From Trichomonas tenax (taxonomy: Eukaryota; Parabasalia; Trichomonadida; Trichomonadidae), in NCBI GenBank assembly GCA_023091735.1, contig JALKBU010000067.1, forward strand, positions 32,301-96,300: a stretch of DNA of 64,000 bases, in the 5' to 3' direction. Below, piece by piece: positions 6,476 through 62,707 of this stretch; the first letter of the stretch is position 1, and the number at the start of each line of letters is the position of its first letter. Position numbers and translations under genes: made by a program. Under the pieces are notes generated by a model, which worked only from the letters and a program-made list of their open reading frames with translations, ran no database searches and had not been told where the DNA came from.

Positions 6476-7537
6476 CCTTTATTTATTTATGTAAATGTTT
6501 TATGTTATTTTCCTTTTTAGTAACCGAAACAGTTTTGTTGTTTCTAGCATCAGTAAAATGAAGCCATATCGCTCTGTGTGTTATTCTCCCAAAAATAATG
6601 ATGATTCTTTTTTTGCGCGGCTAAATTTGACAAGTTTATTAAATTGAGAAAAATAACACACAGAGCTTATGTGCGAACACTTGGAATACTTTTTTCTAAA
6701 AAAAAAACATATTTGTGATTAGATTTACCTATTTATCATCAACAACAGCCTATTTTACGTTATAAAAATGCTATACAATGGGAATATAATATATTATAAT
6801 GAGTAAAGCACATCATGGCAAATCAATGTCTTTGATGCAAGATATATCTAATATTTTAATGAAATATAGACTTTGTTAGCTAATTCTTTAATATATCATG
6901 CACAACAGGATTTTGTACATTGGGGTTCAATAACTTAGCAAGAAGTTAATCCAGTGAGTTAAAAATCGAGTTTCGCCAACTTTGCGTATAAAAATTTAAT
7001 TGCCCGACGAAATTATTTTCGAATAAGTAAAGCTTTTCATGTTTCTGGTGGGATATAAGGTGTAGAATTAATTGCTTTATAGATCAAGATAGTGAGCGAT
7101 TGAAAAAGTTGGAGTTTTTATACCAAAAATCAAAACACCGTCATGACAAGAGTCATTTGTTTACAAAGCGGTTTTGACAAACATTAATTTTTATTTAAAA
7201 ATGCTATATCATAATATGCATAAATAATAGATTCCAATTCAATGTGTTGCTAGAAATAAATTGTGATGACATTGAATTTGCTCTTGATGGAAAGCCTTTT
7301 GAACAATTCAAGGAATCAAGATTGGCGATTGTGGGTAAGACTGCGCTCAATTCTCTCAAAAGTCCCCAAAAAAAATTATAAACTTAACAAAATGTAAAAA
7401 TTTTTAATATTAATTTTAGCGGTTTCATCTCAAATTTTCTCTCTCAAAATATAATTCAAAGTTTTGCTAAATCATTCTATTTTTATAGCTATTACATTTA
7501 AAAATTTCAAAAAAATACAAAAAAAAATTTTCTTTCA
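6476..7537. other. Intergenic, one foldback, no gene seen
   Basis: AT-rich DNA without a supportable reading frame, containing the inverted repeat listed at 6571-6666. The stretch 7400-7537 is highly A/T and is the likely promoter of the following Myb gene. Confidence 0.5.
6571..6666. repeat. 15-bp perfect inverted repeat, 96-bp foldback
   Basis: GCTCTGTGTGTTATT at 6571-6585 is perfectly complementary to 6652-6666, with a 66-base spacer. Pairing extends past a two-base bulge into TCTC/GAGA. It could be a tiny MITE or a 3' hairpin of the phosphatase transcript. Confidence 0.65.
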
Positions 7538-20210: not shown

Positions 20211-21200
20211 TCATAAAGTTTATTTTTGTATAAATATGCTTGAAGAATTATTTAACAATTCCCGATGGAAAATATTTTCCAAATTCTATCCTATCGCTGC
20301 TGAACATGGTTTTTCAAAGCAAGACGTTCGACAATTTTTAAACAAACATGTTGTTCATGACAAATTAAAAATAGATTCCTCGAAGTACTTCTTACACATT
20401 TATTCTAAAACTCCTGATTCATACCAATTTGATACATTAATACAAAGTAAAGGTTCTTCACCGCCTGCATTCTTGATATTCATTAATATTAATTCACGAA
20501 AAGGTTATGCTTATCCGTTAAGGAAAAAAATACTGATTCGGTAATGAATGCATTAAATGAATTTGTAAAAACAGTTCATCCCAAAACATTAACGTCTGAT
20601 CAAGATAGTGCATATTTAGCTAAATCAGTAACTGAATTCTTTAACGAAAATAACATAACACATTACACAACGGAGAAGCATAACCATAACATTCTTGGTA
20701 TAATTAATAGACTCATTCGAACGTTAAGAGATTTAAACAGAGATCGAGACTTTATTATAGACTCAATGAGTAAATTTATTAAAACATATAATTACACCAT
20801 CCATTCTTCGACAGGAATTCCACCAAATAAATTTAACGCTACTAATGAGTTTATATATATTGAACAAATGAATGCTAAAACTGATGCTATCACTAGCGAT
20901 AAAGAGTTTAAATTACTTCCTGGCGAAAAGGTGAGAGTTATCATTGATTCGAATCCACTGAAAAAGAGAAGAACGAAGTTAAGTCCAAATTACTATATTG
21001 TCGATTCTAAGCAGGCTAATGGTTTCTTAATTAAAGCAGCGGATGATTCAGTCGCTTGTAATCCAAGATATAAATTAATCCGAAGGAATGAGGGTAAGTA
21101 TGCATCAGCCATTGACGATGCAAGTTTTGGAATCATTGATGAGATCATAGATTACGATGCAAAGACTGACAAGTATACCGTCATTTATGAAGGAGGTATC
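20194..21200 (+). mobile_element. Maverick/Polinton-type integrase, frameshifted
   Basis: Two frames make up one integrase. The first, from about 20236, carries YFLHIYSKTPDSYQFDTLIQ and PAFLIFININSRKGYAYPL. After a single-base shift in an A-run near 20530, the second continues with SDQDSAYLAKSVTEFF, TTEKHNHNILGIINRLIRTLRDLN and then a chromodomain-like or SH3-like tail (LLPGEKVRVII, FGIIDEIIDYDAKTDKYTVIYEGG). The Asp in FDTL and the Asp in TSDQD fit the DDE core. HNILGIINR sits where other integrases have a Glu-containing helix. This agrees with the c-integrase of Mavericks, which are abundant in trichomonads. No other Maverick genes lie nearby, so this is a solitary decayed fragment. Confidence 0.75.
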
Positions 21201-21696
21201 ATCATAGTAAGCCCACTAATGGAAAACGTCACGATTTCAACTTATTTAAATATACTGAGATTGCAGATCTTGTCAAAAAGGAAGCAGTTGAAGTTTTCGA
21301 TCATTTGGCCATTATCCACAGATCATGGCCGATAGTTGTTATACTGGAATGAGAGCTAGCATACCCGGGGCTCAAGTCATGAAGAAGAAACCCAAAGGAA
21401 GAGAGCTTTCAGCCGAAGACAAGGCGCAAAATAAGAAGATTTCACATTCCCAAATAGTGGTAGAGAATTATTTTGGTTGCCTTAATGTGCTCTGGAAGAT
21501 TATGGCACTTCCATATCGTTTGAAACTCGAATACTACGATGTTATTTTTACATTTTGCGCTTCATTGACTAATTATCATCTTAAAAACTCACTATTGAGA
21601 CAACACGAATACTGTGCTCAATTTCAACTTTTTAATTATAATATTAATAATCAGCTAGAAACGGTGAAATCATTTACCATTTTAATAGCCACTTGA
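21201..21696 (+). mobile_element. DDE transposase (IS5/Harbinger-like) C-terminal relic
   Basis: Right where the integrase homology ends, another frame reads SKPTNGKRHDFNLFKYTEI, like the GSxHDxxLF block of DDE_Tnp_4 transposases. After a shift near 21310, the frame from 21325 reads ADSCYTGMRASIPGAQ, then KKPKGRELSAEDKAQNK, then VVENYFGCLNVLWKIM. This is the typical distal part, with the catalytic Asp of the DSGY block and the Glu of VExxFG. The N-terminal half is missing. The abrupt junction suggests one element landed in or recombined with the other. Confidence 0.65.
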
Positions 21697-23611: not shown

Positions 23612-25948
23612 TTATTGAGTTGCGTTTTCATCTTCGATGTACATTCGATACAAGACGTTTTCGAGTGAATCAACAACAATATTGAAGCCATCGATGCCAA
23701 ACTCTTCTTTGCGAGATTCGATTTCTTCGAGAAGTGGAACGATTTCTGATGAAACAGGAAGGAGAATGTGATTTTTGTGTGAATCATCAATTGCTGCATC
23801 ATTGAACTTTGAAAGGCAGAACTGATACAATGTTTGAATAACCTCTTCAGATCGTTCTTTGTTCTTAAATGATGGTGTCAAAACGTATCCGCAGTGATAT
23901 TTTCTTCGCAATTCACTCGATGAACCTTGGAATATCAACTTTCCTGACCTGAGAATGAAAAGTCTGTTGGAAACTGTTTCTGCTTCTTCCAATGAGTGTG
24001 AACTGATAAGAGATGTTGTCTTATATGTTGAGATTGACTTCCAGATCGCTTGTCTTGTTGTGACATCGATTCCTGCTGTTGGTTCATCTAAGATGATGAA
24101 TTCTGGTGTTCCAATGAATGCCAATGCGATGCTTAATTTGCGCTTCTGTCCTCCTGACAATTTTTCTGCAATATGATCTCTGATTTCACTCAGTCCAAAA
24201 TTATCAATGCATAAATCAAGTTCATGTTTGAGTTTTGCACCCTCAAGTCCTCTCAGTTGTGCAAAGAATTCGAGGTGTTTGTAAACAGAGAGCTTCTCGA
24301 AAAGAACATTCTCCTGGAAGCAGATTCCTAAGTAACTTTGAAGATCCGAAAATCCAGAAGCTGTTTCGATGCCCAACAACTTGATTTTTCCTCCATCAGA
24401 GTCGAGGCAACCTGTCATGCAGTTCATCAACGTTGTTTTTCCACTTCCATTTGGACCAATCAAAATGATGACTTCTCCTGAAGATATTCCGAAAGAAACA
24501 TCGTCTAGAGCGTGAACTTTGACTCTTCCTTTGTATGTCTTCGAAATGTTTGATACGCTAATAAATGTTTCATCAGAATTTATGGCCGTGTTCTGTGGCG
24601 AAATACTTGAGAAAAGTTTTTTCCAATGCTTTTTTGAGAACATATTTCGGAATCCAATTGGAGGAATTCCGTTCTCTCTTGGGCACATCAAATTGAAGAA
24701 AATGAAAAGCAAAAAGTAAACAATGCAGAGAATTAAAAGAATAAATATGCATGTTGACATCGAATATATTTCAAAATTTGTATTCCAGTTTGCAAAAGTG
24801 AGAGGGAAATTATATTTAAGTCCTGAGTTTATAGCATCCGTAAAGATCTGCAATGGTATGAAAGGAAGAAAAGACAATGATTCCAAAATAATGGGAAATG
24901 AACGACCAATTTTCTCTTTATACATATACAACTGAAGTACTATGACAGGGAAAGCAATAAAAATCATTGTAATGGCCCTAAATGCCACATATTTCTTAAA
25001 CAATGGAACTGTCATCAGTATTAAATTGTAGCAAGCTAAGTTAAAAAGAACAGAAACCATAATAAATAACAAAATTTGTGATCCCTTGAGAACAAGATTA
25101 TACAATACCAAAGCAGTCAGAACGATATGAACAAAAATGATCAAGAAATCAGCCAAAATATTTGCTGCAATGAGAGTTTTTTCATGAGCGCCGGATATGA
25201 TCAAAAGAAGATGTATCTTTGATGCTCTCTGCAAAACCATTTCTCCTATAAAAATCCAAATTGGAACAATTACTGCAAATTCAATGAAAAACTGAACGGC
25301 AGGATTCAATGGTTGATTTTCAAAATCCTTTGTTTGAAATGGATTTGTCATCTCATCTATTGTAACTTTTCTTGTAAAATTTGATGTTTTATTGAAAATG
25401 AATTCAAGTAACTCTGAATGAACAGCACCTGTGAATTTGTTCTTATTATATAATGTTTGTCCACCTGTTATATTGAAAAGTTTTGATGACTCATCGAATC
25501 GTAAATGAAGCTGATTGTCTTTGGTTGAAAAATCATTGTACTCTTTTTCATTCTGGAATATTGTAATTTCATTGTCATAAATATTTTGAGATGACAAATT
25601 AAGATTCTGGAAAAAGTTTTTTATTTCTTTTGTATACTGCGTGTCCGGATATAGGCCTGTAGTTACATTTTGCATCTTGAGATAAATTGCAGGCTGTGTA
25701 TAGGTATAAGTAAAATTCCAATCAAATTGTTTTTCTTTGATAATTTTATTAGGATCATTTGATTTTATTGGAATAACAAAACCAATGAGAATCAAAAGAC
25801 CAATAATTGCTATTTCGATAAGATAAAATGAAATCTTCCTGAAGCGCATCTGTAATAACAAGGAAAAATACTTCTTGAAGATGAGCTTCTGCGAGCGGTT
25901 TCTAAGATGCACATCTGCATCATTTTCGGTTAAATTTTGCATCAACAT
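23612..25948 (-). CDS. Half-size ABCA-type transporter
   Basis: The first ATG at 25948 gives 778 residues; 15 further codons are open upstream only from a TTG. Layout is membrane domain then ATPase, as in a half ABCA protein. There is one span near residues 43-59, a luminal loop to about 220, and several spans between 225 and 420. The nucleotide-binding domain begins near 463. Walker A is GPNGSGKT at about 498-505, the signature is LSGGQ at 597-601, Walker B is FIILDE at 617-622, and the switch His is in SSHSLEE near 651. All ATPase residues are intact. The family moves lipids or related substrates. It is divergent to the transporter at 26036, with only 87 bases between start codons. Confidence 0.92.
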   Translation of the reverse strand: MLMQNLTENDADVHLRNRSQKLIFKKYFSLLLQMRFRKISFYLIEIAIIGLLILIGFVIPIKSNDPNKIIKEKQFDWNFTYTYTQPAIYLKMQNVTTGLYPDTQYTKEIKNFFQNLNLSSQNIYDNEITIFQNEKEYNDFSTKDNQLHLRFDESSKLFNITGGQTLYNKNKFTGAVHSELLEFIFNKTSNFTRKVTIDEMTNPFQTKDFENQPLNPAVQFFIEFAVIVPIWIFIGEMVLQRASKIHLLLIISGAHEKTLIAANILADFLIIFVHIVLTALVLYNLVLKGSQILLFIMVSVLFNLACYNLILMTVPLFKKYVAFRAITMIFIAFPVIVLQLYMYKEKIGRSFPIILESLSFLPFIPLQIFTDAINSGLKYNFPLTFANWNTNFEIYSMSTCIFILLILCIVYFLLFIFFNLMCPRENGIPPIGFRNMFSKKHWKKLFSSISPQNTAINSDETFISVSNISKTYKGRVKVHALDDVSFGISSGEVIILIGPNGSGKTTLMNCMTGCLDSDGGKIKLLGIETASGFSDLQSYLGICFQENVLFEKLSVYKHLEFFAQLRGLEGAKLKHELDLCIDNFGLSEIRDHIAEKLSGGQKRKLSIALAFIGTPEFIILDEPTAGIDVTTRQAIWKSISTYKTTSLISSHSLEEAETVSNRLFILRSGKLIFQGSSSELRRKYHCGYVLTPSFKNKERSEEVIQTLYQFCLSKFNDAAIDDSHKNHILLPVSSEIVPLLEEIESRKEEFGIDGFNIVVDSLENVLYRMYIEDENATQ

Positions 25949-25957
25949 TTTTGGAAT

Positions 25958-25969
25958 AATGTCACTTTT
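25958..25969 (-). promoter_or_regulatory. AAAAGTGACATT box for the left ABC gene
   Basis: A perfect copy of the recurrent box lies nine bases upstream of the ATG at 25948, on the same strand as that gene. Confidence 0.55.
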
Positions 25970-25999
25970 ATGAGCTAGGTTTCTCAGCTCCAAAAAATA

Positions 26000-26035: not shown

Positions 26036-28402
26036 ATGACAAGATCGCTTCTCTTCAGTCAGATCTCTGCCATTCTTTACAGGAGGTCGCTTGTCCATTG
26101 GCGTCATAAATTTGAGTTCCTTTACTCTGTTATTTTGGTGGTCATAATGTCAATTTTACCATTAATTATTCGAAAATCAAATATTAACACCAAAATAGTA
26201 TCAAGTGATTACATTACAGGTTTCCATACATTTAAGTCTAAAAATATCGAAATTGCAAGAATTAAAGATTTTAATTGTACCAACGGAATATGCGTTCCTG
26301 AGTTCACTGATGAACTTAAACTGTTGGCTAAAGAAGATATTGGTATTGATCTCAACATTACTGATTTTGAAAATTTCACTATTTTCGATCTATGGCAGCA
26401 AAGAAGGGTATTCCAAGAAAGCAACACAGTGTTCATTCCATTTGCGTACCAAATTTTAAAGAACTCTAACTTGGATAATAATTTTGAATTAAAATTAATG
26501 AGAAATGGAACTAATGATGATCTCACAGAATTATCGATTGTAACTAGAGCTTTATATAGATTGAACCATAAATCTGACGCTATTGTGATGTTTAACTCAA
26601 AATTTGATCCAAGTTACAATTCGAGAAGAGATTATGAACTAACTCTGACAAATATGTTCCCAGCCTTTACTTCTTTATCTTTTGCATTCATAGCGATGTT
26701 AATTCTTCCTCGTATTATTGAGGACATTCATTCTCCAATGCGCCCTTACATGATTGCTTGTGGTTTGAGTAGGCTTTCTTATTGGGTTGGCAATATAATT
26801 TTCGATGTGGTTCTCCTAACTATTGTCTCTTTGATTATTTTCATCGCTTATTATATATTTGGCATCAAATTATTAGTTTCTTATCCTGCATTAACTTTAC
26901 CGCTGCATGTTTGTGGATTCATTTCTCCTCTTATTTTCACATATATGTTTGGTTTCATTTTTAAGAATAAGAATGGTGCTGTATTTTATTTCTTAATTAT
27001 TCTTCTTGTAACTTTTATTCCTTATATAATTTTCATTTTTGTGAAGAAAGAATCCGTCAAGAATTTTTTATCAATAGCTTTCGAAATACTTTGTCCTGTT
27101 TCGGCTTATTCATATGTTTTTAATAGCATAGCAAGCAAGTTCACTATTGCACTTTTCTTTGAGACAACAAAGTCCATCAAGTTCTTCGATACAAAAATGG
27201 AACGGGCTCAATTGGCTTTGATGTTCATCTCATATCCATTTTATGGTATTGTAATCTTTTTAATCGAAGCTTCTATCAAAGCAGCAAAGAAGAAGTTAAC
27301 AGAATTTGGATGGCATAGTCATGCTGCTTATTTTCAAGCTGTCAAAAACTCTCAAAACATTACTCCGGAAGCCAAGCAAATGGAAGAAGAAGTAAGAAGC
27401 AATACCACTGAATACGTCATTACAATTCATGATGTATCAAAACTGTATCGTGATGCTAAAGGAAATCCAATTTATGCCGTTAACCAAGTATCACTTGGCA
27501 TTAAGAGAGGATGTTTTTTCGGCTTCCTCGGTTCAAATGGCGCAGGAAAAACTACTCTAATGAAGATGATTCTTGGGCAAGAACCTCATTCCAATGGATT
27601 TATTGAAATCGAAGGAAAGAACATCGACGCTGATTTCGACACAACACAAATTGCAATATGTCCACAGTTCGATGATCATTTAACAAACGAATTGACTGGC
27701 ATCGAGAACTTGAAATTCTTCTGCAAACTTTATAACAAGAGTAAGCAAGAAACAAAAGAAACTATCGATATGATCGTCGATCTTCTCGATGTTCATGAGC
27801 ACAAAGAAAAGCTTCACTGCCAAATGTCTGGAGGCAATCGAAGAAAGTTTAGTGTTGGCGTTGCTTTCCTATCTGATGCTCCAATTATTCTTCTCGATGA
27901 ACCAACTTCTTCACTCGATCCAATTGCACGCCACAAAGTTCATCAAATGATCAACAGGTACAAAGGTAAAAAAACTTTCATGCTTTGCACTCACCTCCTT
28001 GATGAAGCTGAAGGCCTTTGCGATGAAATATCGATTATGTTCAATGGCTGCGTTTACACTATTGGCACTCCATCACACTTATCAGATCGCTTTGGCACTG
28101 AATGGAAAGTCGATGTCATTCTTGAAGATCCATCTCAAGATACATGTACAAAAGTTGCTAATTTCTTCAATAAGCACCTTCCGAGCGCTAAGATTGTGAT
28201 CTCACGAGAGGTTTCAAGAGTATATTCAGTCTCGTCTGATGCAATCGGTATCACTGCTCTTTTTAGGCTTCTCGAGAATGCAAAAACCCAAAATGTTGGA
28301 ATCAAGTATTACACTTGTTCATGTTCCACATTGGAAAAGGTTTTTCAGGAAATCGTTATGCTTTCAAAGCAGCACCAGCAAGATATGCAGAAAATGCAAT
28401 AA
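26036..28402 (+). CDS. Half-size ABCA-type transporter
   Basis: The product has 788 residues. One span lies near residues 29-47, then a luminal loop with Cys pair CTNGIC to about 205, then spans between 208 and 415. The ATPase domain begins near 460. Walker A is GSNGAGKT at 499-506. The signature is MSGGN at 597-601, altered from LSGGQ. Walker B is IILLDE at 617-622. The switch His is in CTHLLDE near 653. The C-terminus resembles the regulatory tail of ABCA proteins. It shares layout and size with the opposite-strand transporter at 23612, so the two may be coexpressed partners of a heterodimer. That pairing is inferred from arrangement only. Confidence 0.92.
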   Translation: MTRSLLFSQISAILYRRSLVHWRHKFEFLYSVILVVIMSILPLIIRKSNINTKIVSSDYITGFHTFKSKNIEIARIKDFNCTNGICVPEFTDELKLLAKEDIGIDLNITDFENFTIFDLWQQRRVFQESNTVFIPFAYQILKNSNLDNNFELKLMRNGTNDDLTELSIVTRALYRLNHKSDAIVMFNSKFDPSYNSRRDYELTLTNMFPAFTSLSFAFIAMLILPRIIEDIHSPMRPYMIACGLSRLSYWVGNIIFDVVLLTIVSLIIFIAYYIFGIKLLVSYPALTLPLHVCGFISPLIFTYMFGFIFKNKNGAVFYFLIILLVTFIPYIIFIFVKKESVKNFLSIAFEILCPVSAYSYVFNSIASKFTIALFFETTKSIKFFDTKMERAQLALMFISYPFYGIVIFLIEASIKAAKKKLTEFGWHSHAAYFQAVKNSQNITPEAKQMEEEVRSNTTEYVITIHDVSKLYRDAKGNPIYAVNQVSLGIKRGCFFGFLGSNGAGKTTLMKMILGQEPHSNGFIEIEGKNIDADFDTTQIAICPQFDDHLTNELTGIENLKFFCKLYNKSKQETKETIDMIVDLLDVHEHKEKLHCQMSGGNRRKFSVGVAFLSDAPIILLDEPTSSLDPIARHKVHQMINRYKGKKTFMLCTHLLDEAEGLCDEISIMFNGCVYTIGTPSHLSDRFGTEWKVDVILEDPSQDTCTKVANFFNKHLPSAKIVISREVSRVYSVSSDAIGITALFRLLENAKTQNVGIKYYTCSCSTLEKVFQEIVMLSKQHQQDMQKMQ

Positions 28403-51310: not shown

Positions 51311-54300
51311 TTACTCATTCATGTCATTGTCCTTGAAGCTTCCAAATGTTGGAGCCTTTCCAAATTGAGGAGCCTGGCCGAATGATGGAGCTGCAGTGAA
51401 TGTTGATTGCTCGCCAAATGTTTGACCGAATGCTGGTGACTGATCGAATGAAGGTGCCTGACCGAAAGCTGGGGACTGACCAAATGTCTGAGGTTGCCCG
51501 AAGGCTTGAGATGTTCCATATGAAGGTGTTTGTCCAAATGCTGGTGATTGCCCGAATGCTGGAGCTTGACCGAATGTTGGGGACTGGAAACTGCCAAATG
51601 GTTTGGAAGAATCCTTGTTAGCACCAAAGACTGGTGGTGTCTGGAATGTTTGTGGCTTTGGATAATTGAATGGCTTGGAGAAGTCTTTCGCATCTTTAGA
51701 TGGCTGCTGGAAGAAGAATGGTTTGTTGTCGAATTGTGGTTTGTTGTCTTCGCTCTTCTCAGGAGAAGATGGAGCATTGAAGAATGTCGGCATTTCATAT
51801 GGACTTGACTTCTTAGTCTCTGGGGTTGGCATGAAGAATCTTTGTGGCTTGTCATTGGATTCTTCATCGTCGCTATCTTCATTATCATCTTGCTGTTTTT
51901 CGTTCTTCTTCTCTTCCATGATTGGTTTTTGTTCATTCTTCTTTTCATCGGCTTCAAGTACATTATCAGTGGAAGGTTTCTCTTCTTCCTTCTTTTCTTC
52001 AACCTTTTGTGCTGGAACAACTGGCCTCTCTTCTTCCTTCTTTGGTTCTTCTTTCGGCTCCTCAACTTTAGCCGGTATTGGCATGAAGTTCTTTGGTTTC
52101 TCTTCCTCCTTCTTCTCTTCAACCTTTGCAGGTGTTGGTATGAAGAACTTTGGCTTCTCTTCCTCTTTCTTTTCCTCAGGCTTTGGAGATGCTGGTTGAG
52201 GGATGAACACTTTTGGCTTCTCGGCCGGTTTTCCAAATGCTGGAGGTGCCATGAACATCTGAGGCTTTGGAATTACGGCGGGCTTTTCGTCCTTCTTTTC
52301 CTCAGTCTTCGTTTCTTGTACGGCTGCAGTTGGGATAAAGAAATTTGCCTTTGGTTCTTCCTTCTTTTCCTCAGTCTTTACTGGTGTTGGCACGAAAAAC
52401 TTTGGCTTTTCTTCTTCCTTCTTTTCCTCAGTCTTTACTGGTGTTGGCACGAAGAACTTTGGCTTTTCTTCAACTTTAGCTGGCGGTGGCATGAAGAACT
52501 TTAGCTTGTCTGCTTCTTGCTTAACAGGAGATGTTGGTGGTGGCATGAAAACTCTTGGAGCTGCAGCTGGCTTTTGTGGGATTGCTTCAACCTTCTCGTC
52601 ATCAGAAGAAAGCTCAAGAATCTCATCTCTCTTAGCAATCTTAGAACGCAATTCCTTGATTTCATCAGCCAAGTCATCGATTTCCTCATTGTGGTGCTGC
52701 TCAGCAACTTTAATTTCACTCTTAACACCTTCAATCTTCTGCTTGATTTCAGCAAGCTCTTGTTTCTTACGCATTAAATCAAGTTCCCAGTCCTTCTTCT
52801 TGTTGCTGAGTTCCTCAAGCTGATCCCCGAGTTCAAACTTGCGAAGCTTGAGTTCAGCAAGAGTTTCGTCAAGAGGCTGTAATCCTTCTCTTTCCTCACG
52901 TGGAGCGGCCTTAAGTTCATCTTCGATAATCTTGATATCTGCTTCAAGAGTCTTGATTTCACCCTCAAGATTCTTGGCGTTGTTATCACGCTGCCACTTC
53001 AATCCACGTAACTGACGGCGCTTCTGTCTGGCCAATCCAGCGAGTTCAATTGACTTTTGCTCAAGTGTCTTTGTAGAACTTCTATTGATTTCTTCCTGTA
53101 AGTCTTGCTTCATGCGCTCGTTTGTATCGATCTCATCTTCAAGTTCCTTGATCTTAGCAACAAGTTCGCTGTTGTCCTGAGTCATAGATGAAGACTTAGA
53201 CTTTAATTCGTCATATTCGGACTTCATCTTATTGACTTTCTCGGCAATTTCTTTGTTCTTCTTTTCGAGATTTTCTTTCTCTGCCTTGAGCTCATCAACT
53301 TTCTTCTTTTCATCATCAATTTGCTTATTGATTGCTGTTTCATCGTCAGTCATCTTTGATGCTTCTGACTTAAGATTCTCAATTTGTTCGAGAAGCTTCT
53401 TTTCTTCGTCTTCCAGATTGCCTTTGTTGTCGTCATTCTTCTTCTTCTTCTCGTTAAGGCTCTTGGACTTAGAAAGTAACTCTTCGTGCTGCTTCTTAAG
53501 CTGCTCAACTTTTTCTTGAGAAACTGAAGATGTTGATGACTTAAGTGACTCTTCAAGTTCATTGTTCTTGGTCTCAAGATCCTGGTTGGATTTCTCGAGC
53601 TCGGCAACAACATTCTCTTGGTTTGCGATTTGCTTGAGAAGGTTCTGATTCTTCTCCTGAAGTGCTTCGTACTTCTTCTGAGCATCAGTGAGTTTCTGGC
53701 GTGCGATATTGTTGAACTCTCTTGCGCGGCGCTTGTCTTCATTGTGCTTCTTTGAAAGCTGCTCGCGCTGTGCACGAAGCTCTTCGATGTTCTTCTTGAT
53801 TTCCTGGTATTCCTTCTCATTATCAATCCTGAACTGGTTGATATTCATTGACAACTCATCGCACTTGGCGCGTAAATCGGAAACCTTCTTATTGGCAGCG
53901 TCCATTGTGGACTGTAAGTAGTTCCTCTGCTCAAGGAGTTGGTTATACTGTGCTTCAACCTCATTCTGCTGACCCTGAATAATATCCTTTTCTGTTTCAT
54001 TATCAGCAATTTCGGCCTTGAGTTTCTCGATTTCTTCCTTGAGGTTGGCGTTATCGACTGTTGATGTCTGCTTAGCAGCAATCTTCTGCTTAAGATCGTC
54101 AACAATCTTCTGTAATTCTTCTGTGTTGTTTTGTGGCTGTGTATTCTCGAGTTGAGTCTTGAGATACTCAATTTGCTTGCTAAGTTCCTCATTGTTAGCA
54201 ACTTCACTCTTCTTTGAATCGATCTGAGACTTGAGATCATCAATAACCTTTTGCAACTCTTCGGAGTTATCCTGTGGCTTTGTGTTCTCAAGCTGTTGCT

Positions 54301-57300
54301 TAAGCTCCTCAATCTCCTTCTTAAGCTGCTCGTTGTCAGAAACTTCGTTCTTCTTCTGTTCGATCTTGGCCTTAAGTTGTTCGATCTCCTTCTTCATCTC
54401 ATCGGCTCTTTCGTTGGTTTCAAGACCAGATAAGGTGCTGTTGAGTCTTTCAATTTCATCAGCAAGCTTTGTCGTCCGTTCGTTGTTGTAATCGCGCTTC
54501 ATATGGATTGTCTCCTTGAGGCTTTCGATTTCGCCCTTGAGCATTGTACGCGTTTCATCTGTGCTATTTTCTTCCTCAAGTTCCTCGTTGAGCTCTTGTC
54601 TGAGCTTCTCCAAGTCTTCGAGTTCCTTCTTGTTGTGGGCCTTAGCTGTGTCGAGTACGAGCTTGAGCTTCTGGATTTCGCCCTTCAAGTTCTCAACGGC
54701 ATCATGGCCTGATGTCTGCTCATCAAGGATATCATCCTGAAGCTCTTGGATTTCCTGCTCCTTTTCGGACCTGGCCCTATCGTGATCGTCAATGAATGTC
54801 TGAAGCTTGTTCTTGAGCTCATTGATGATGTCCTGAAGCTTGGATGAATCAGCAGAGTTCTCAGCATCCTTCTGTTCGATCTGAGATCTGAGGCTATCGA
54901 TTTCTTGGCTGAGCTTGCTTTCACTGCCAGAGTTAGCTTCTGTCTTCTCCTTAAGAACTTGCTTGAGCTGATCGATTTCGGACTGAAGCTTATTCTCTGT
55001 TTCGGCAGCCTTCTGTTCTTTCTCTGCAATTTCGCTCTTGATGTTCTCGATTTCGGCCTTAAGATCAGAGTTGGTATCCTCCTCTTCGTTAAATGAGAGC
55101 TCCTGTTTGAGTTGTTCGATCTCTTCGCGAAGTTTCTCGTTCTCTTCGGCAGCAATAATCATCTGCTGAAGCTGTTCCTTGAGTGAATCAAGTTCATTTT
55201 CGAGGGCAGTCTTTTCTGATTCTGGATCGTTCTGGGACTTAATTGCCTCTATCTCGGCCTTGAGGGAATCAATCTCCTCCTGGAGCTGTGCATTCTCATC
55301 AGACTGAGCGTTGTCAGCGAGCTGGGCCTTAAGTTCTTCGATTTCCTTGTGGAGTTTCTCGGATTTCTCCTTCTTTTGCTGCTCCTTCAGGTGGAGTTGT
55401 TCTTGAAGTGTTTCGAACTCTTTCTCGGCTTCATCATCAGAGCTGGCTCTGGTTGCGAGTGCTTCCTTGATATCAGCGATCTGGGCCTTAATCTCGGCCT
55501 TGTCTTCCTCCTCTTCAATAAGATGATTGACGTGAGCATGCAATTCTGCAAGTTCTTCAAGGAGTGATTGCCTGGATGGAGAGCCCTTGAGATCTTCGAG
55601 TTCAGCCTTAACCTTCTCGATCTCTTCCTTGATCTCAGAATCTGTCTTCTCGCTGTTGAGCTGGTTCTTGAGGTCATTGAGCTCTTCATTGAGATTCTGG
55701 GAATCTCCTTCTTCGTCAAGAACGATGACGTCACGTGACTTTACATCACTCTGCTCGGCAAGTTCGGCCTTGAGATTCTCAATTTCCTGTTTAAGCTTCT
55801 CGTTCTCTTGAGCAACTTCAGACTGAGCAATCATCTTCTTCATCTCTTCGTTAGACTTCTCGCTCTCTTCTGTTTGCTTCTGGAGATCCTCGAGTTCGTG
55901 AGCAAGATCAATTTTGAGCTTTTCGTTTTCAGCCTTCTTCTCTTCGAACTTTCTTTCGCTTTCTTCGATCTGTTCACCGAGTTCTTCGATTTCTCTGAGG
56001 AGATCAGATTCGGCCTTCTCGTTTTCGGCATTCTTGTCTTCAAGCTGCTCCTTGAGTTCGTCGATCTGCTTCAGGAGCTCATTTTGTTCGTTGTTGAACT
56101 GCATTTCCTTCGATTCGAGTTCGGCGCGAAGTTGATTGATTTCTTGCTGCTTCTTTTCGACATCATTTGATAACTCAGTCTCCTTTGAAACAATGGCAAG
56201 TGAAAGATTACGCAACTCATTATCCTTCTGAGCGTTCAACTCGCTGTACTTCTTCTCGACTTCCTCGACTCTTTGCTTGAAATCCTGGAGCTCGTTCTCC
56301 TTGACTTCGACTTCAGAAGCACCTTCATCAGTCTTAGCCTTCAATTCGTCCTTGAGATCAAGGATTTCCTTCTCCTTATCGCAAAGATCAGCAGCAATCT
56401 TGTTCTCGACGTCAGCGATCTTTGTAAGGAGTTCGTCCATCTCTTTCTGCTTGTTCTGAGAATCGATTGTGCTTTGCTTCTGCTTCTCTTCGAGTTCGAA
56501 TAACTTTCTCTGTAAATCATCGAGGATCTGCTCGTACTGCTTGGAATCAGATTCGTTTTCAAGCTCCTTTTCGTGAATTCTATCCTTCAGTATATCAATC
56601 TCTCTCTGAAGTTCAGACTGATCTATAACCTTAAGAGATTCAAGCTGATCCTTGGCTTCCTGGAGCTCCTTCTCGAGTTTCTCCTTCTGTTCAGCATTGC
56701 ATTGACGCTGTTCTTCGGCTTCTTGTTTGAGATTTTCGATTTCTTCAGCAACTTCAACCAACTGATCTGGATCGATTTCTGCTTTGATTACCTCGATATC
56801 GTTTTCTGCTTGCTCCTTCTCGGCATTCAAGTTTTCAAGCTGAGCCTTGAGATCGGCGATTTCCTTCTCTGTGTTCATCTTCTGTTCGGCCTTGGCAATG
56901 ACTTCGTTCTCAAGTGTTGTCTTCTTGTTCTCGAGATCATTGCATTCTGCGTTAACCTTAAGAAGTTCATCTGTGAGCATTGCATCTTCTTGTTGAAGCT
57001 TTCCGTACTCTTCCTTCATCTCTTTGATCTTCTTCTTTGTCTCGTCGATCTCTTCCTTGAGGGAATCAGCGTTGTCGTCGGCATTTGGGAGATTTTCGAG
57101 CTCCTTCTTGAGATCCTCGAGCTGCTTAGCAATGGCTTCATTGTGCTTCTCCTTATCGCCGTTTGCAGATTTCCTGTATTCGATTTCGTCATTGACATCG
57201 TTGATCTGCTTCTGGATTTCTTCTGTCTTATCTTGGACAACTTCGATTTCTTCGAGCTTCTTCTTTGTTTCTTCGAGAGACTCCTCGAGCATCTTGTTGC

Positions 57301-60300
57301 CTTCTTCGATGTCCTTGTTTTCGTTCTGCTTCTGCTCAATTAACTGCATTGTTTCGTCGATCATCTTCTGTATCTCTTCGGACTTGTCTTCGATGATGGC
57401 AATGTTGTCATGCTGAGACTTTGTCGAATCGAGTTCCTCCTTGAGCTTGTTGTTGGACTCAAAAATGTTGGCGTTCTTCTGCTTCTTGCCTTTGATCTTG
57501 GTCTTAAGTTTTTCGATTTCTTCGTTGAGTTCAGCAGACTTGTCCTCAACTTCCTCGATGTTCTCGAGTTCATCATTGAATTCGTTGACCAGGTTAGAAA
57601 GCTCTTCGTTATTCTTCTCTATCTCAGCGTTCTTCTGCTTCTTCTCTTCAATCTTGGCCTTAAGTTCCTCGATCTTCTTCTCGCCTTCTTGCTTGCCGCT
57701 GTCGACCACTTCGATGTTGTCGAGTTCGTTTTGTAACTTCTGTAACTCATTGAGTATTTCTTCGTTCTGCGCGCTTCTATTGGCATTTTCTGCCTTCTTG
57801 TTTTCGAGCTTCTCTTTAGTTTCCTCGAGCTGAGCACTGAGTTCTTCGGTCTTATCTTCGACAACTTCCATATTGTCGAGATCATCCTGTGCCTGCTTGA
57901 GAGCTACCTCGAGCATGTTTTTGGCCTCTGTGACATCATTGTTTTCGGAATTCCTGCTTTCAATAGCTTGCTTGATTTCTTCAATCTTAGCTTGGATTTC
58001 CTCGGCCTTGTCTTCAACAACTTCGGTCTCATCAAGCTTCTTCTGTAAGCTCTCGAGCTGACCCTTCATTGAAGAGTTGTTCTTCTCTGTGGATTTGTTG
58101 TTCTCCTTCTTTTCTTCGATCTTCTTCTTGAGATTATCGATTTCTTCAGCGAGTTCTGATGACTTGTCTTCGACATCTTCTATAGCATCAAGTTCATCTT
58201 GTAACTGCTTTACCTGTTGAAGGAGTTCTTCGTTGGCTTGAGAGTTCTGAGAATTCTCGGCCTTCTTTTCTTCGATCTTGGCCTTGAGGTCCTCGATCTT
58301 CTTCTCGCCTTCCTCCTTACCGCTTGCAACGATTTCCATGTTTTCGAGTTTGTTCTGAAGCTTTTGGACTTCCTTGAGAATTTCTTCGTTTTCATTTTCG
58401 ATTTCGGAATTGCTCTTCTTCTTGTTCTCGATTTCTTCCTTGATCTTTTCGATCTTCTCCTTGTTCTCATCGCGGTGGTCTTCGATAGGAACAATTGATT
58501 CGAGCTGAGCCTGAAGATCATTGAGATCAGCAAGAACCATATCATTGGCCTCCTTGATTTCCTCATTTTCACGGTTCTTGTTATCAATATCGTCCTTGAT
58601 TGATTCCATCTGCTCTGTGTATTCTTCGATCTTGTCTTCAACGGTTTCGACACCATCGAGCTCTTCCTTGAGCTTCTGAAGTTCGGCTTCAAGTGACTTG
58701 TTCTGCTCTTCGATGTTAGCATTGTTCTGCTTCTTTTCTTCGATTTGAGATTTAACTCCCTCGATTTCATTGTTGATTTCCTCGGATTTATCTTCGACAT
58801 CAACAATAGCATTGAGTTCATTGAGAACATCCTCGTGCTGCTTCTTTAACTCGTCTAAAGCTGTTGTAACATTAGCGTTGTTTTCATTCTTTTCGTTGAT
58901 CTGAGCCTTGATGTTTCCGATTTGTTCCTCAAGTTCCTTGATATTCTTTTCGTCTTCAACCTCAGTTACTTCGAGTTCAGCTTCAGCATCTTCAAGTTCA
59001 TCTTCGAGCTGCTGCTTTTTCTGAGCGTTTTCTTGCTTCTTCTGCTTGAGCTTAGCCTTAGTTTCCTCGACTTCCTTAGCGATTTGTTCGAGTGGTAAAT
59101 CGCTTGTTTCGATCTTGGAAAGCTCGGATTTGAGCCGCTCAAGTTCTTCAGCAAGCTTCTTGTTTTCTTCGGCGATCTCGTTGTTGCGCTGGTTCTTTGA
59201 ATCGATTTCTTCTCTGACTTTCTCGATGTTTTGAGAGATTTCTTCCCTCTCGTCCTTAACTTCTTTGATGTTCTCAAGAATTTCACACTGTTCTTTCTCA
59301 GACTCCTTGAGCATCTTGATTTCGTCTTCAAGTTCGTCGTTTTCACGCTCCTTCTGAGCGATCTGAGCGAGAACTTCATCTAAGGACTTATAAAGGTCCT
59401 CTCTGTTATCTTCAACAGCTGGGATGCTGTGAAGCTTGTTCTCGGCCTTTGTGAGATCCTCCTTAAGATGAACAAGGAGGGATTCAACGTGTGTATTCTG
59501 TGCAACTCTCTTTGTGATTTCATCGGTGATCTCTTCGATCTTATCCTTAAGCTTCTCGGATTCATCAACTGTGTCAGCCATGTTCTCTAATTCGTTGTTC
59601 TTCTGTTCGAGCTCTTCCTTGAGTTCCTTGTTAGTCTTATTGATGTTATCGATTTCCTTCTTGACGTTCTCTATTTCATTCTTCAAATACTCGGAGTTGT
59701 TCTTGATGTTTGTCATTCCATTGAGTGTTGTCTGATCACGCTTCAATTCAGCCTCGAGATCATCGTTTGTCTTTGTTGTGACATGGTTCTGCTTCTCCTT
59801 TTCTTCGATCTGCTTCTTGACATCAGCGATCTGCTTCTTGAGGCTTTCTGAGTTGTCTTCGATAACTTCAATAGAATCGAGTTCCTTGATCGACTCCTCG
59901 AGCTCATCATTGAGAGCCTGGTTAACTTCGGAGTTAGATTGGTTATTGTTCTTTCTCTCAGAAACCTGTTGCTTGACGTCGTTCAACTTCTTTGTGAGCT
60001 CGTCAGCATTGTCGGAAACGATTTCAGTGGCATCTAGTTCTTTCTGGAGTTCTTCGAGTTCATACTCGAGAGCCTTGTTCTGGTCGATGATGTCCTGGTT
60101 GAGTTTCTTCCTGTCAGCGAGATTTGCCTGAACTTGCTGAATTCTCTCGCGGATCTCATCACTCTGATCTTCAACGATCTCGATAAAATCGAGTTCGTTC
60201 TTTGTTTCCTGCTCAATTTCTATGAGCATGTTGTTCGCTTCCTGAACTTCCTCATTCTCACGCTTCTTAACCTCGATCTGAGACTTGAGATTCTCGATGC

Positions 60301-62707
60301 GCTCGTTCAACTCTTCGCGGTTGTCCTTTACAGCAGCGATCTCGGACATCTCATTCTCAAGATGATTGATTTCCTGTTGAAGAGAATCGATTTCTTCCTG
60401 AATGCGCTCGTTCTGGGTTGTCTTTTCGACGATTTGCTCGTTAAGATCATCAACCTTTGTCTGAAGTTCTTCGGTGTTGTCGACGAAGTTGTTGAGGTTG
60501 TCAAGTTGCTCTTGAAGGTTCTGTATCTGCTTTGTGATAGCTTCGATCTCCTTAGCCTTCTCTGAGTTCTGCTTGCTAACGTTGTTGTACTTGTCTTCAA
60601 CCTTTTGCTTTTCGGCCTTCATGCTGTCGATCTGATCCATCATGTCGTGGTACTGAAGTGTTGCATCATCAAGTTTCTGCTTGAGTTCAGCAACTTCGTT
60701 CTGCAAGTCTTCTGATTCGTTCTGGACATCAACAAGCTGGAGATTATGGAGTTCTTCCTCAAGCTTTGACTTTTCATCAAGAAGTTTCTTCTCTTCCTGA
60801 TCTCTGTCATTTTGAGCCTTCTTCTTGAGTTCCTTATCCTTCTCGATTTCCTCCTTGAGCTGCTTGATCTGGTCGTTCATTTGCTTGTCGTTGCTTTCCT
60901 TGTTCTTCTGGAGTAACTCCTTCTCGAACTGAAGCTCCTTGAGCTGATCCTTAAGCTCATCGATCTCGAAGTCTGGGATTGTCTGGATGTAATCCTTCAA
61001 CTGAGCAATTTCATCAGAAACGTTATCGATCTCAGTCTTAAGCTCGTTCTTCTTCGAATAGTGTTCCTCTTTAGCCTTCTGGAGTTCTTTGTCGACCTTG
61101 ACCATTTCGTCCATCTTAGCCTTGAGCTGCTCATTGAGCTTGTTAAGTTCTGTGACTCTCTCGTTATTCTTTCCGAAGAGTTCTTCTCTCTTCTTGTTGA
61201 CCTTATCTTCCATATCAGAGAGATCGTGTGAAGCGTGCTCGATTTCTGATTGAAGGTCGACATTTTGTGGCTGGTTGAGTTGTTCGAACTCTGACCTGGC
61301 TCTTTCGAGAGCTTCCTTGATCTTCTTGAGTTTAGCCACGTGATTGGCCTTCTCCTGGGCCTGTTCCTTCCTGAGCATTTCGCATTGCTTTTCTTTAAGC
61401 GCTAACTGCTCCTGAAGGGCGGCCTTCTGCTTGTCATGATCACCGTGGACCTTGGTTGTAAGATTGTTGAGTTTGCTGTATTCAGCATCGATTTCTTGGA
61501 TTTGGTTATTAATCGATTGTAATTCGTCCTTTGTATTTTCTGCATCTGTTGTAAGATCCTTACGACGTTGGATGAGATTTTGTCTCCTCTCAGCGAGTTT
61601 CTGACGTGAATCTTCGATCGTCTTCTTCATTTCAGCGAGTTTCTTCTCTGCAATCTGCGTCTTCGCTGTCGTTTCTTCGAGCCTTTCTCTGAGCTTCTTG
61701 ACTTGAGGCTCCTCTGTAGCTTGAAGTCCTGCGATTTCGTCTTCGATTTGTTGTTTATCCTTTTCGGCCTTTGCAATCTGACTCTTAATCTTGTCAACGT
61801 CCTTCGTATGCGAATTCTTAAGGTCTTGAAGCTCGCGACGCTTTTCTGCGACTAAATCAATCATTGCATTGAGTGAATAGTTGAGATTTTCTGTCTTTCC
61901 TTCTTCATCCTCGATCTCCTTCTCCGTCTGATTGAGTTGATCTTTGAGTTGCTTCATCCTGCGATCTTTGTAGTTTCCTCGGTCAATGAAATTGCGGTAA
62001 GAAGGACTCGACGGCGATGTCTTGAGTTCAGAGAGTTTGGATTCGCCCTCAATGATGCCGGAAAGATTCGAAATGCTGAGATCATTGCCGGCCTTTAATG
62101 TTTTAATTTCGTCATCTTTGTCCTGGAGCTGCTTACGAAGCGAGTCCATCTGTGCCTTCTGTCTGGCGTTTTCTCTGTAGAGCTGCTTGACTATCAAAGT
62201 TGTTTTAGATTCAGCTGGTCCGAGGCCACCTTCTGTTGCTGACAAGGAAAGAAGGAGTCCATTTGTCGCTGATTCCCGAAGCTCTTTGTTCTTTTGCTCC
62301 AATTCGGCGATATCTCTTCTTTGTTTATTAATTGTTCGCATTAATTTACGAATCTTGTTAGCTGTATCCTTATCATCGTCAATCTGCTTTAAGTCGCTTG
62401 TATTTGGAAGATCTCCGATGAAATTAATTGTTTTGGCCTTGAGTTCTTTGTTTTCGAATTCTAATGATTCATTTTGACGCTCTAATTCGATCATTCGTTG
62501 GCTCTGCTCCTTCAGTTCGTTGTAAGCATCCTGTGAGCGTTGTTGTGCCTTAGCTAATTGCTGAGCGAGCTGCTTATTAACATCAATCAAGTTGTGTCTG
62601 TTCTTGTAAAGCTGAAGGCAGATTTCCTGCAGCTTCTTCGTGTTGGTAATATTTTTAATTGAGTCCGCTGTGATTACTATCTTCTCAGTTGGAGACTGAA
62701 GAGACAT
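51311..62707 (-). CDS. Giant coiled-coil protein with 52-residue repeats and an FG-repeat tail
   Basis: The ATG at 62707 (MSLQSPTEKIVI) gives about 3798 residues; 13 more codons open only through TTG. Residues from about 15 to 3380 are almost continuous heptad coiled coil, rich in E, K, Q, L and N. Between about 735 and 1890 it is a tandem array of a 52-residue unit with the core (I/M)EVVEDKxEEL. After the coil comes a Pro/Glu/Lys region (about 3380-3690) with some ten FFxPxP motifs separated by EEKKEEEKPK spacers. The end has about 13 FG dipeptides in PAFGQSP-type spacing. FG repeats are the hallmark of nucleoporins; the coil recalls Tpr/Mlp basket proteins and protist lamina proteins. A nuclear-envelope scaffold is a reasonable hypothesis. 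Trichomonad coiled-coil proteins of this kind are often mislabelled as viral inclusion-type proteins. Confidence 0.93.
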   Translation of the reverse strand: MSLQSPTEKIVITADSIKNITNTKKLQEICLQLYKNRHNLIDVNKQLAQQLAKAQQRSQDAYNELKEQSQRMIELERQNESLEFENKELKAKTINFIGDLPNTSDLKQIDDDKDTANKIRKLMRTINKQRRDIAELEQKNKELRESATNGLLLSLSATEGGLGPAESKTTLIVKQLYRENARQKAQMDSLRKQLQDKDDEIKTLKAGNDLSISNLSGIIEGESKLSELKTSPSSPSYRNFIDRGNYKDRRMKQLKDQLNQTEKEIEDEEGKTENLNYSLNAMIDLVAEKRRELQDLKNSHTKDVDKIKSQIAKAEKDKQQIEDEIAGLQATEEPQVKKLRERLEETTAKTQIAEKKLAEMKKTIEDSRQKLAERRQNLIQRRKDLTTDAENTKDELQSINNQIQEIDAEYSKLNNLTTKVHGDHDKQKAALQEQLALKEKQCEMLRKEQAQEKANHVAKLKKIKEALERARSEFEQLNQPQNVDLQSEIEHASHDLSDMEDKVNKKREELFGKNNERVTELNKLNEQLKAKMDEMVKVDKELQKAKEEHYSKKNELKTEIDNVSDEIAQLKDYIQTIPDFEIDELKDQLKELQFEKELLQKNKESNDKQMNDQIKQLKEEIEKDKELKKKAQNDRDQEEKKLLDEKSKLEEELHNLQLVDVQNESEDLQNEVAELKQKLDDATLQYHDMMDQIDSMKAEKQKVEDKYNNVSKQNSEKAKEIEAITKQIQNLQEQLDNLNNFVDNTEELQTKVDDLNEQIVEKTTQNERIQEEIDSLQQEINHLENEMSEIAAVKDNREELNERIENLKSQIEVKKRENEEVQEANNMLIEIEQETKNELDFIEIVEDQSDEIRERIQQVQANLADRKKLNQDIIDQNKALEYELEELQKELDATEIVSDNADELTKKLNDVKQQVSERKNNNQSNSEVNQALNDELEESIKELDSIEVIEDNSESLKKQIADVKKQIEEKEKQNHVTTKTNDDLEAELKRDQTTLNGMTNIKNNSEYLKNEIENVKKEIDNINKTNKELKEELEQKNNELENMADTVDESEKLKDKIEEITDEITKRVAQNTHVESLLVHLKEDLTKAENKLHSIPAVEDNREDLYKSLDEVLAQIAQKERENDELEDEIKMLKESEKEQCEILENIKEVKDEREEISQNIEKVREEIDSKNQRNNEIAEENKKLAEELERLKSELSKIETSDLPLEQIAKEVEETKAKLKQKKQENAQKKQQLEDELEDAEAELEVTEVEDEKNIKELEEQIGNIKAQINEKNENNANVTTALDELKKQHEDVLNELNAIVDVEDKSEEINNEIEGVKSQIEEKKQNNANIEEQNKSLEAELQKLKEELDGVETVEDKIEEYTEQMESIKDDIDNKNRENEEIKEANDMVLADLNDLQAQLESIVPIEDHRDENKEKIEKIKEEIENKKKSNSEIENENEEILKEVQKLQNKLENMEIVASGKEEGEKKIEDLKAKIEEKKAENSQNSQANEELLQQVKQLQDELDAIEDVEDKSSELAEEIDNLKKKIEEKKENNKSTEKNNSSMKGQLESLQKKLDETEVVEDKAEEIQAKIEEIKQAIESRNSENNDVTEAKNMLEVALKQAQDDLDNMEVVEDKTEELSAQLEETKEKLENKKAENANRSAQNEEILNELQKLQNELDNIEVVDSGKQEGEKKIEELKAKIEEKKQKNAEIEKNNEELSNLVNEFNDELENIEEVEDKSAELNEEIEKLKTKIKGKKQKNANIFESNNKLKEELDSTKSQHDNIAIIEDKSEEIQKMIDETMQLIEQKQNENKDIEEGNKMLEESLEETKKKLEEIEVVQDKTEEIQKQINDVNDEIEYRKSANGDKEKHNEAIAKQLEDLKKELENLPNADDNADSLKEEIDETKKKIKEMKEEYGKLQQEDAMLTDELLKVNAECNDLENKKTTLENEVIAKAEQKMNTEKEIADLKAQLENLNAEKEQAENDIEVIKAEIDPDQLVEVAEEIENLKQEAEEQRQCNAEQKEKLEKELQEAKDQLESLKVIDQSELQREIDILKDRIHEKELENESDSKQYEQILDDLQRKLFELEEKQKQSTIDSQNKQKEMDELLTKIADVENKIAADLCDKEKEILDLKDELKAKTDEGASEVEVKENELQDFKQRVEEVEKKYSELNAQKDNELRNLSLAIVSKETELSNDVEKKQQEINQLRAELESKEMQFNNEQNELLKQIDELKEQLEDKNAENEKAESDLLREIEELGEQIEESERKFEEKKAENEKLKIDLAHELEDLQKQTEESEKSNEEMKKMIAQSEVAQENEKLKQEIENLKAELAEQSDVKSRDVIVLDEEGDSQNLNEELNDLKNQLNSEKTDSEIKEEIEKVKAELEDLKGSPSRQSLLEELAELHAHVNHLIEEEEDKAEIKAQIADIKEALATRASSDDEAEKEFETLQEQLHLKEQQKKEKSEKLHKEIEELKAQLADNAQSDENAQLQEEIDSLKAEIEAIKSQNDPESEKTALENELDSLKEQLQQMIIAAEENEKLREEIEQLKQELSFNEEEDTNSDLKAEIENIKSEIAEKEQKAAETENKLQSEIDQLKQVLKEKTEANSGSESKLSQEIDSLRSQIEQKDAENSADSSKLQDIINELKNKLQTFIDDHDRARSEKEQEIQELQDDILDEQTSGHDAVENLKGEIQKLKLVLDTAKAHNKKELEDLEKLRQELNEELEEENSTDETRTMLKGEIESLKETIHMKRDYNNERTTKLADEIERLNSTLSGLETNERADEMKKEIEQLKAKIEQKKNEVSDNEQLKKEIEELKQQLENTKPQDNSEELQKVIDDLKSQIDSKKSEVANNEELSKQIEYLKTQLENTQPQNNTEELQKIVDDLKQKIAAKQTSTVDNANLKEEIEKLKAEIADNETEKDIIQGQQNEVEAQYNQLLEQRNYLQSTMDAANKKVSDLRAKCDELSMNINQFRIDNEKEYQEIKKNIEELRAQREQLSKKHNEDKRRAREFNNIARQKLTDAQKKYEALQEKNQNLLKQIANQENVVAELEKSNQDLETKNNELEESLKSSTSSVSQEKVEQLKKQHEELLSKSKSLNEKKKKNDDNKGNLEDEEKKLLEQIENLKSEASKMTDDETAINKQIDDEKKKVDELKAEKENLEKKNKEIAEKVNKMKSEYDELKSKSSSMTQDNSELVAKIKELEDEIDTNERMKQDLQEEINRSSTKTLEQKSIELAGLARQKRRQLRGLKWQRDNNAKNLEGEIKTLEADIKIIEDELKAAPREEREGLQPLDETLAELKLRKFELGDQLEELSNKKKDWELDLMRKKQELAEIKQKIEGVKSEIKVAEQHHNEEIDDLADEIKELRSKIAKRDEILELSSDDEKVEAIPQKPAAAPRVFMPPPTSPVKQEADKLKFFMPPPAKVEEKPKFFVPTPVKTEEKKEEEKPKFFVPTPVKTEEKKEEPKANFFIPTAAVQETKTEEKKDEKPAVIPKPQMFMAPPAFGKPAEKPKVFIPQPASPKPEEKKEEEKPKFFIPTPAKVEEKKEEEKPKNFMPIPAKVEEPKEEPKKEEERPVVPAQKVEEKKEEEKPSTDNVLEADEKKNEQKPIMEEKKNEKQQDDNEDSDDEESNDKPQRFFMPTPETKKSSPYEMPTFFNAPSSPEKSEDNKPQFDNKPFFFQQPSKDAKDFSKPFNYPKPQTFQTPPVFGANKDSSKPFGSFQSPTFGQAPAFGQSPAFGQTPSYGTSQAFGQPQTFGQSPAFGQAPSFDQSPAFGQTFGEQSTFTAAPSFGQAPQFGKAPTFGSFKDNDMNE
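51320..51640 (-). repeat. FG-repeat coding segment
   Basis: Codes for about 13 FG dipeptides in a Ser/Pro/Gln/Ala spacer context (TFGQAPAFGQSPAFGQTP). The 18- to 24-base units are imperfect. Confidence 0.85.
51640..52570 (-). repeat. FFxPxP motif coding segment
   Basis: Codes for repeated FF(V/I/M)PTP(A/V)K motifs, among them RVFMPPP, KFFMPPP, KFFVPTP twice, KFFIPTP, KNFMPIP and RFFMPTP, separated by charged EEKKEEEKPK runs. Confidence 0.8.
57030..60490 (-). repeat. About 22-23 tandem 156-bp units
   Basis: Each unit codes for 52 residues. Neighbouring VEDK cores are exactly 52 residues apart where I counted (for example VEDKSSEL to VEDKAEEI to VEDKTEEL). The core varies from NTEEL to DNREEL to DKSEEI. 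Two units have SGKxEGEKK in place of the core. Confidence 0.85.

Follow-up and report, generated by a model that had tools for sequence, protein, structure and literature searches.

A giant coiled-coil protein of Trichomonas tenax ending in an FG-repeat tail of nucleoporin-like flavor

Introduction

NUP-1 of Trypanosoma brucei, a repetitive coiled-coil protein of more than 400 kDa, is described as building a network along the nuclear rim and as setting the spacing of the nuclear pores. The available part of that report gives it a pI of 5.07, coiled coil over almost its whole length, a central array of 17 repeats of 144 aa, and no predicted transmembrane helix (PMC3313915). Lamina-associated proteins of T. 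brucei are reported to interact with the nuclear basket and the lamina, and the same excerpt lists Mlp1 and Mlp2 at 219 and 195 kDa (PMC11018031). Tpr, Mlp1, and Mlp2 are outlined elsewhere as long coiled coils with unstructured termini near the pore (PMC11416316), and the accessible text of another source attributes the FG repeats of the basket to NUP153, NUP50, Nup1, Nup2, and Nup60 (PMC13242641). FG repeats and coiled coil meet in one chain in TbNup140, for which 101 FG in 117 kDa and a predicted 23-kDa coil are quoted (PMC4758718). In Arabidopsis, the FG-repeat basket nucleoporin Nup136/Nup82 is summarized as being bound to CRWN nucleoskeleton filaments (PMC9629626). In Trichomonas vaginalis, the large coiled-coil atractophore protein P477 is described as serving the Golgi-centrosomal region (PMC13071381). 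A preprint on Toxoplasma, in the portion available, cautions that FG- and coil-type motifs alone do not predict orthologs (PMC12407827).

No trichomonad protein uniting a giant coil with an FG tail was reported in the open-licence titles and abstract openings searched, which is weak evidence of absence. In this study, we analyzed a gene of Trichomonas tenax that a sequence-only reading had described as encoding a giant coiled-coil protein ending in nucleoporin-like FG repeats, and we compared it with the systems above.

Materials and methods

The window is the whole stretch of DNA that was analyzed, 64,000 nucleotides of T. tenax (contig JALKBU010000067.1 of assembly GCA_023091735.1, positions 32,301 to 96,300, forward strand). 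Nucleotide coordinates refer to the window and residue numbers to the giant protein. The FG-rich proteins and nucleoporins used as controls were taken from the same assembly (53.4 Mb, 1528 contigs). Domains were searched with Pfam and NCBIfam profiles. Relatives were searched in the assembly, in the PDB, and in a protein database. Structure models were made with AlphaFold2. FG counts and repeat-unit copies were compared with those of shuffled sequences, and the residues preceding FG were compared by Fisher's test.

Results

The gene is a single open frame on the minus strand, with its ATG at 62707 and its stop codon at 51311-51313. The frame from 62707 to 51311 encodes 3798 aa with no internal stop, a protein of 440.6 kDa (~441 kDa) and pI 4.7. 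The sequence-only reading had placed the gene at 51311..62707, which is correct, and its three-part layout was borne out. The coil, put at about 3300 residues, extends to about aa 3371 as judged by hydrophobic periodicity and by the end of the helix in a model. The motif-rich linker is present at aa 3372-3639 with ten F(F)[MVI]P-type motifs, and exactly the claimed 13 FG are counted at aa 3640-3798. Third-position GC (GC3) falls from 0.54 for the coil to 0.42 for the linker and 0.38 for the tail; six further large frames in the window have values of 0.33-0.41.

The coiled-coil rod (aa 1-3371; 52595..62707, minus strand) shows a hydrophobic periodicity of 3.36-3.58 residues in 16 of the 17 blocks of 200 aa from aa 1 to 3400, the exception being aa 2801-3000 with a weaker periodicity of 3.94. 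For aa 3200-3798, AlphaFold2 run without an alignment gave a helix up to aa 3371. The model of aa 1-300, made with two sequences, shows five briefly interrupted helices and lacks a clear globular fold (pTM 0.27). If the rod were one continuous helix, its length would be ~500 nm by arithmetic for 3375 aa. The best 19-residue Kyte-Doolittle mean across the whole protein is only 0.77, too low for a membrane anchor.

At aa 741-1875 (57083..60487, minus strand), a profile scan scored a 52-residue coil unit (consensus VEDKSEELQKKIEDLKAQIEEKKQENAEIEEANKELEEELEELQNELDNIEV) 20 times in an array. The spacing between copies is exactly 52 residues in 17 of 19 cases and 97 and 102 in the remaining two; because the profile was trained on the giant protein itself, this fixed spacing is stronger evidence than the copy score. 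Beyond the array, aa 2026-2862 contain four additional copies that are more scattered. When aa 601-2000 were shuffled in heptad blocks, a mean of 0.04 copies and a maximum of 1 resulted (n=50). The coil at aa 1900-2700 (54608..57010, minus strand) has a periodicity of ~25 residues, with autocorrelation peaks at 25, 50, 75, and 100.

Matches of the coil to the Pfam families GAS, ATG16, KASH_CCD, and DUF4200 did not reach the curated cut-offs, nor did ten NCBIfam matches such as SMC and Rad50; these identities were rejected and the matches taken as generic coil. The sequence-only reading had likened the coil to Tpr/Mlp and to lamina proteins. Membership of Tpr/Mlp or of the lamins was not supported at the profile level, since TPR_MLP1_2 (PF07926) and the lamin filament and tail families of Pfam were absent from the giant protein at E up to 0.1.

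The N-terminal head block (aa 8-60; 62528..62686, minus strand) is the most conserved part in the alignment with a paralog, in which a second conserved block, KIRKLMRTINKQRR, covers aa 118-131 (62315..62356, minus strand). The sole relative of the head in the genome is a frame of 1300 aa on contig C1067, with 41% identity over aa 8-230, which runs off its contig at the contig start. When five repeat units were used as the query and 147 of 869 candidates were scored, the 16 matches that reached E 1e-6 were confined to the giant protein and contigs C1067 and C730. The C730 frame, which begins at the contig start, has 3491 aa and aligns with the giant protein at 26% identity over 1652 columns in the best match. 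The 52-residue unit was scored in 25 copies on C730 and eight on C1067, and in none on shuffles. C1067 and C730, which we treated separately in the analysis, are probably one paralogous gene split over two contig ends. At its end, the C730 frame shows neither FG nor a motif-rich linker, and its coil contains two isolated FIP matches. What is probably the 3' portion of the paralog thus has no FG tail, which suggests that the tail is not general to the coil family. For the C-terminal coil, three weak genome matches were found (E 0.015-0.055), and the two of these frames that were read contain no FG; a second C-terminal coil stretch, for which 121 of 899 candidates were scored, matched nothing but itself.

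Searches of 5.8 billion proteins, limited to lengths of 2089-6646 and 1320-4200 aa and to proteins sharing 5-residue words, limits that could hide distant relatives as well as shorter or longer ones, gave no match to aa 1-260 of the head at E 0.01 among 2021 candidates and none to aa 8-140 (2400-aa frame) at E 1 among 407 candidates. In viral contigs, 26 and 206 pattern matches included no relative. With modest confidence, the giant protein may be regarded as a lineage-specific coiled coil.

Long coils are frequent in this genome. TPR_MLP1_2 gave 73 weak matches at E up to 0.1, none above the cut-off and none on the giant protein (contig C1183), and seven of the matched frames exceed 2900 aa, C730 included. 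Contigs C1528, C961, C867, C916, C1459, and C500 carry open frames of 2924-4452 aa that weakly match the coil profile. Contig C1039 (L044/L045) carries a coiled-coil frame of ~3943 aa with a C-terminal hydrophobic stretch (19-residue mean 0.79), a weak candidate for a tail-anchored golgin. Given the seven frames above 2900 aa and the C1039 frame, giant coil-like frames, most of them known by a weak profile match alone, appear ordinary here, and the FG tail is the unusual part.

The frequency of giant coil-like frames would suit a structural cytoskeletal coil of the costa, axostyle, or root filament, in which the sticky tail is incidental. It would also suit this reading that the T. foetus costa proteins are described, in the available part of the source, as mainly alpha-helical and likely coiled-coil (PMC13071381). 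The same text places the main costa polypeptides at about 100-150 kDa, against 441 kDa for the giant protein (PMC13071381), and one would not expect 13 FG to persist through codon divergence if the tail were incidental. We consider a cytoskeletal role improbable.

Elsewhere in the window, two divergent ABC-2 type ABC transporter frames (23612-25993, minus strand; 26036-28402, plus strand) lie 42 bp apart. The frame at 20544-21335 (plus strand) matches the integrase core family (rve) without reaching the Pfam cut-off and is a possible mobile-element remnant.

In the K/E/P-rich linker (aa 3372-3639; 51791..52594, minus strand), the F(F)[MVI]P-type motifs, ten in number with FMAP among them, follow one another at 14-21 residues in seven of nine cases. 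With its 19-residue spacing and KP-F-F-K/E pattern, the linker may resemble the FxFG repeats of Nsp1. The linker found no match in the PDB at E 10 by sequence search and matched only itself in the genome. Its pLDDT is low in the model made without an alignment, and the linker is probably disordered. A 57-bp unit within it, present in 2.2 copies that are 94% alike at the DNA level, indicates that part of the linker expanded recently.

The FG tail (aa 3640-3798; 51314..51790, minus strand) contains 13 FG and nine PxFG, spaced mostly 6 or 12 residues apart, and is near-neutral, with few charges close to the FG sites. Two FG occur outside it, at aa 3491 in the linker and aa 511 in the coil. Shuffles of aa 3651-3798 (n=10,000) gave a mean of 2.3 FG and a maximum of 7, against the 13 observed, and whole-tail shuffles (n=5,000) a mean of 0.33 PxFG and a maximum of 4, against nine. 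Of the 73 stop-to-stop frames in the window that reach 100 aa, the runner-up holds five FG in any 160 aa. After aa 3371, the AlphaFold2 model made without an alignment has low confidence and no secondary structure. This fits, without proving, a tail that is probably disordered.

Across seven FGxxP units, in which the first two codon positions are fixed by construction, 65% of 63 comparisons of F, G, and P codons show a difference at the third position. Phe/Gly codon diversity is 0.50/0.72 in the tail and 0.49/0.66 in eight other frames of the window. The mixed synonymous codons argue for old repeats rather than fresh DNA expansion or slippage. A chance low-complexity tail, or a recently expanded one without function, would agree with the shortness and low complexity of the FG tail and with the recent 57-bp expansion in the linker, and is contradicted by FG and PxFG counts far above those of shuffles and by the diversity of the FG codons. 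We find such an origin highly doubtful; on both shuffles and synonymous codons, the earlier treatment of the FG run as more than chance was sound.

Of 7951 long candidates scored against the tail and linker region, two matched at E 0.01, both of them vertebrate GANP proteins and both in low-complexity FG regions. GANP is the vertebrate relative of Sac3 in TREX-2, an export complex. The whole giant chain had no match in the PDB at E 0.001, and the tail brought up non-significant matches to Spt5 (two distinct sequences, E 3.9) and NUP214 (E 7.4). The other genome match of the FG tail (E 0.33) sits antisense to an acidic frame and was not counted as a relative.

Pfam placed no Nup domain on the giant protein at E up to 0.1, Nsp1_C included. 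The Nucleoporin_FG profile (PF13634) matched 12 places in six genome frames at E up to 10; the giant protein was not among them and had no match at E up to 0.1, and its membership of this Pfam family is not supported. The top scores, both above the cut-off, belonged to a Sec16-like frame (TPR_Sec16 E 9.1e-5; 1452 residues read of a 2132-residue frame) and to a SLFG[DE]-repeat frame without any other domain, and the profile was dropped as a criterion for this reason. FG-rich arms are also found on an ArfGAP frame and on two AAA frames, one with a CDC48 N-domain (L027, L029, and L030). FG richness alone, being present on Sec16-like, ArfGAP, and AAA frames, therefore does not place a protein at the pore. 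A frame on contig C939 may be FAM21-like.

These FG-rich arms speak for the main rival to pore docking, namely that the giant protein is a cytoplasmic tether or a centrosome/Golgi scaffold, golgin- or P477-like, whose F(F)xP motifs and FG would bind coat or trafficking factors. Linker-like [FV]F[IV]P motifs occur twice in the Sec16-like frame and in none of the five other FG-rich frames examined. That this frame alone of the six shares F(F)xP-type motifs is a point for a trafficking role, and a large coil at the T. vaginalis atractophores has a precedent in P477, as the accessible text describes it (PMC13071381). The FG flavor of the FG-rich arms, in contrast, is mostly LFG or [DN]PFG with more acidic flanks (L025, L026, L027, L029, and L030), against [ATS]FG in the giant protein. 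Pfam gave the latter no golgin domain at E up to 0.1, and none of its stretches is strongly hydrophobic. We regard a tether as a real possibility, albeit a minority one.

Nucleoporins were identified in the same genome by their domains: Nup98 (Nucleoporin2, E 6.8e-16; contig C1142), Nsp1/Nup62 (Nsp1_C, E 4.5e-12; contig C709), and three Nup54 frames above the cut-off, of which two were read. A second frame above the Nsp1_C cut-off, on C775, was left out of the set. The four frames used contain three FG (Nup98), none (Nsp1/Nup62), and five and one (Nup54), counts that cover the frames read and to which upstream exons could add. The Nsp1/Nup62 ortholog (L042:1513-2205), 231 aa without FG, is TG/GLG-rich at its N-terminus. 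Unless upstream exons were missed, the pore looks FG-poor in this organism, which would leave room for another FG carrier.

FG is preceded by A, T, S, or G at 10 of 13 sites in the giant tail and at eight of nine in the domain-proven nucleoporins. In the remaining five FG-rich frames, one of which is without independent identity, such a residue stands at seven of 115 sites, and the preceding residue is mostly L or P. By Fisher's test, the giant tail differs from the five frames (2e-8) and not from the nucleoporins (0.62), values that overstate certainty because the feature was chosen post hoc, repeat sites are not independent, and the nucleoporin sample comprises nine sites. Acidic residues among the 12 flanking each site number 0.62 in the giant tail, between the 0-0.33 of the nucleoporins and the 0.92-3.06 of the five frames. 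The description of the FG as nucleoporin-like thus found post-hoc support, in that the [ATS]FG flavor matches Nup98 and Nup54 of this genome and not the LFG or [DN]PFG frames. On balance, the tail appears to group with pore proteins by its FG flavor.

A frame on contig C1291 (L028:1749-3257; 503-507 aa, 21 FG), so far unassigned, has a Nup-like flavor, with A, T, S, or G before FG at 14 of 21 sites, and a sub-cut-off match to the FG profile. It is a candidate novel FG nucleoporin.

Discussion

The reading that we tentatively favor, with somewhat less than even confidence, is a giant coil whose nucleoporin-type FG tail docks at nuclear pores or on transport receptors. The protein would dimerize into a long rod, measuring at most about 0.5 micrometre, with its C-terminus as a disordered arm consisting of a charged F(F)xP spacer followed by a nucleoporin-type PxFG domain. 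The FG end may enter the FG phase of the pore, or bind karyopherins or mRNA-export factors, and the rod and the conserved N-terminal head may assemble with like molecules. The giant protein would then be a peripheral component, similar to a basket or scaffold, and would keep pores in position.

A bolder proposal, which we think unlikely, is that a nuclear scaffold of giant coil and the FG phase of the pore are linked by one chain, in an organism whose Nup62 has lost its FG repeats. Under this one-chain proposal, a lamina-like rod would have taken over part of the FG function of the channel nucleoporins. No description of such an architecture was found in the literature searched.

If the FG tail works at the pore, tagging the protein would give direct access to the pore periphery and nucleoskeleton of this lineage, about which little is known, and a giant coil would be able to carry FG while the channel Nup62 has none. 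If it is instead a cytoplasmic tether, the FG arms on trafficking-type proteins would call for caution in naming nucleoporins by FG count or by the Pfam FG profile.

Among the described systems, NUP-1 resembles the giant protein in how it would work. The giant protein has 441 kDa, pI 4.7, an array of 20 units of 52 aa, and no membrane anchor, and the likeness to NUP-1, whose repeats have 144 aa rather than 52, is one of description. The FG tail sets the two apart, none being reported for NUP-1 in the available part of its description (PMC3313915). A long coil with an unstructured end is common to the giant protein and to Tpr/Mlp as outlined in the excerpts cited, in which Mlp1 and Mlp2, at 219 and 195 kDa, are far smaller than 441 kDa. 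P477 is another large coil, of ~477 kDa if its name gives its mass; its accessible description locates it at the atractophores, and the comparison is again with that description and not with its sequence. GANP, the sole significant database match of the tail, shares a PAFGQ-type FG region, whereas the giant protein has none of the Pfam domains listed for the GANP proteins matched. Nup136/Nup82 and CRWN, likened here by their summarized description, are separate proteins, whereas the giant protein is one chain. FG domain and coiled coil do occur in one chain in the Nup62/Nsp1 class and in TbNup140, as far as the cited text describes them, and in the giant protein these proportions are reversed, with ~3370 residues of coil and 13 FG.
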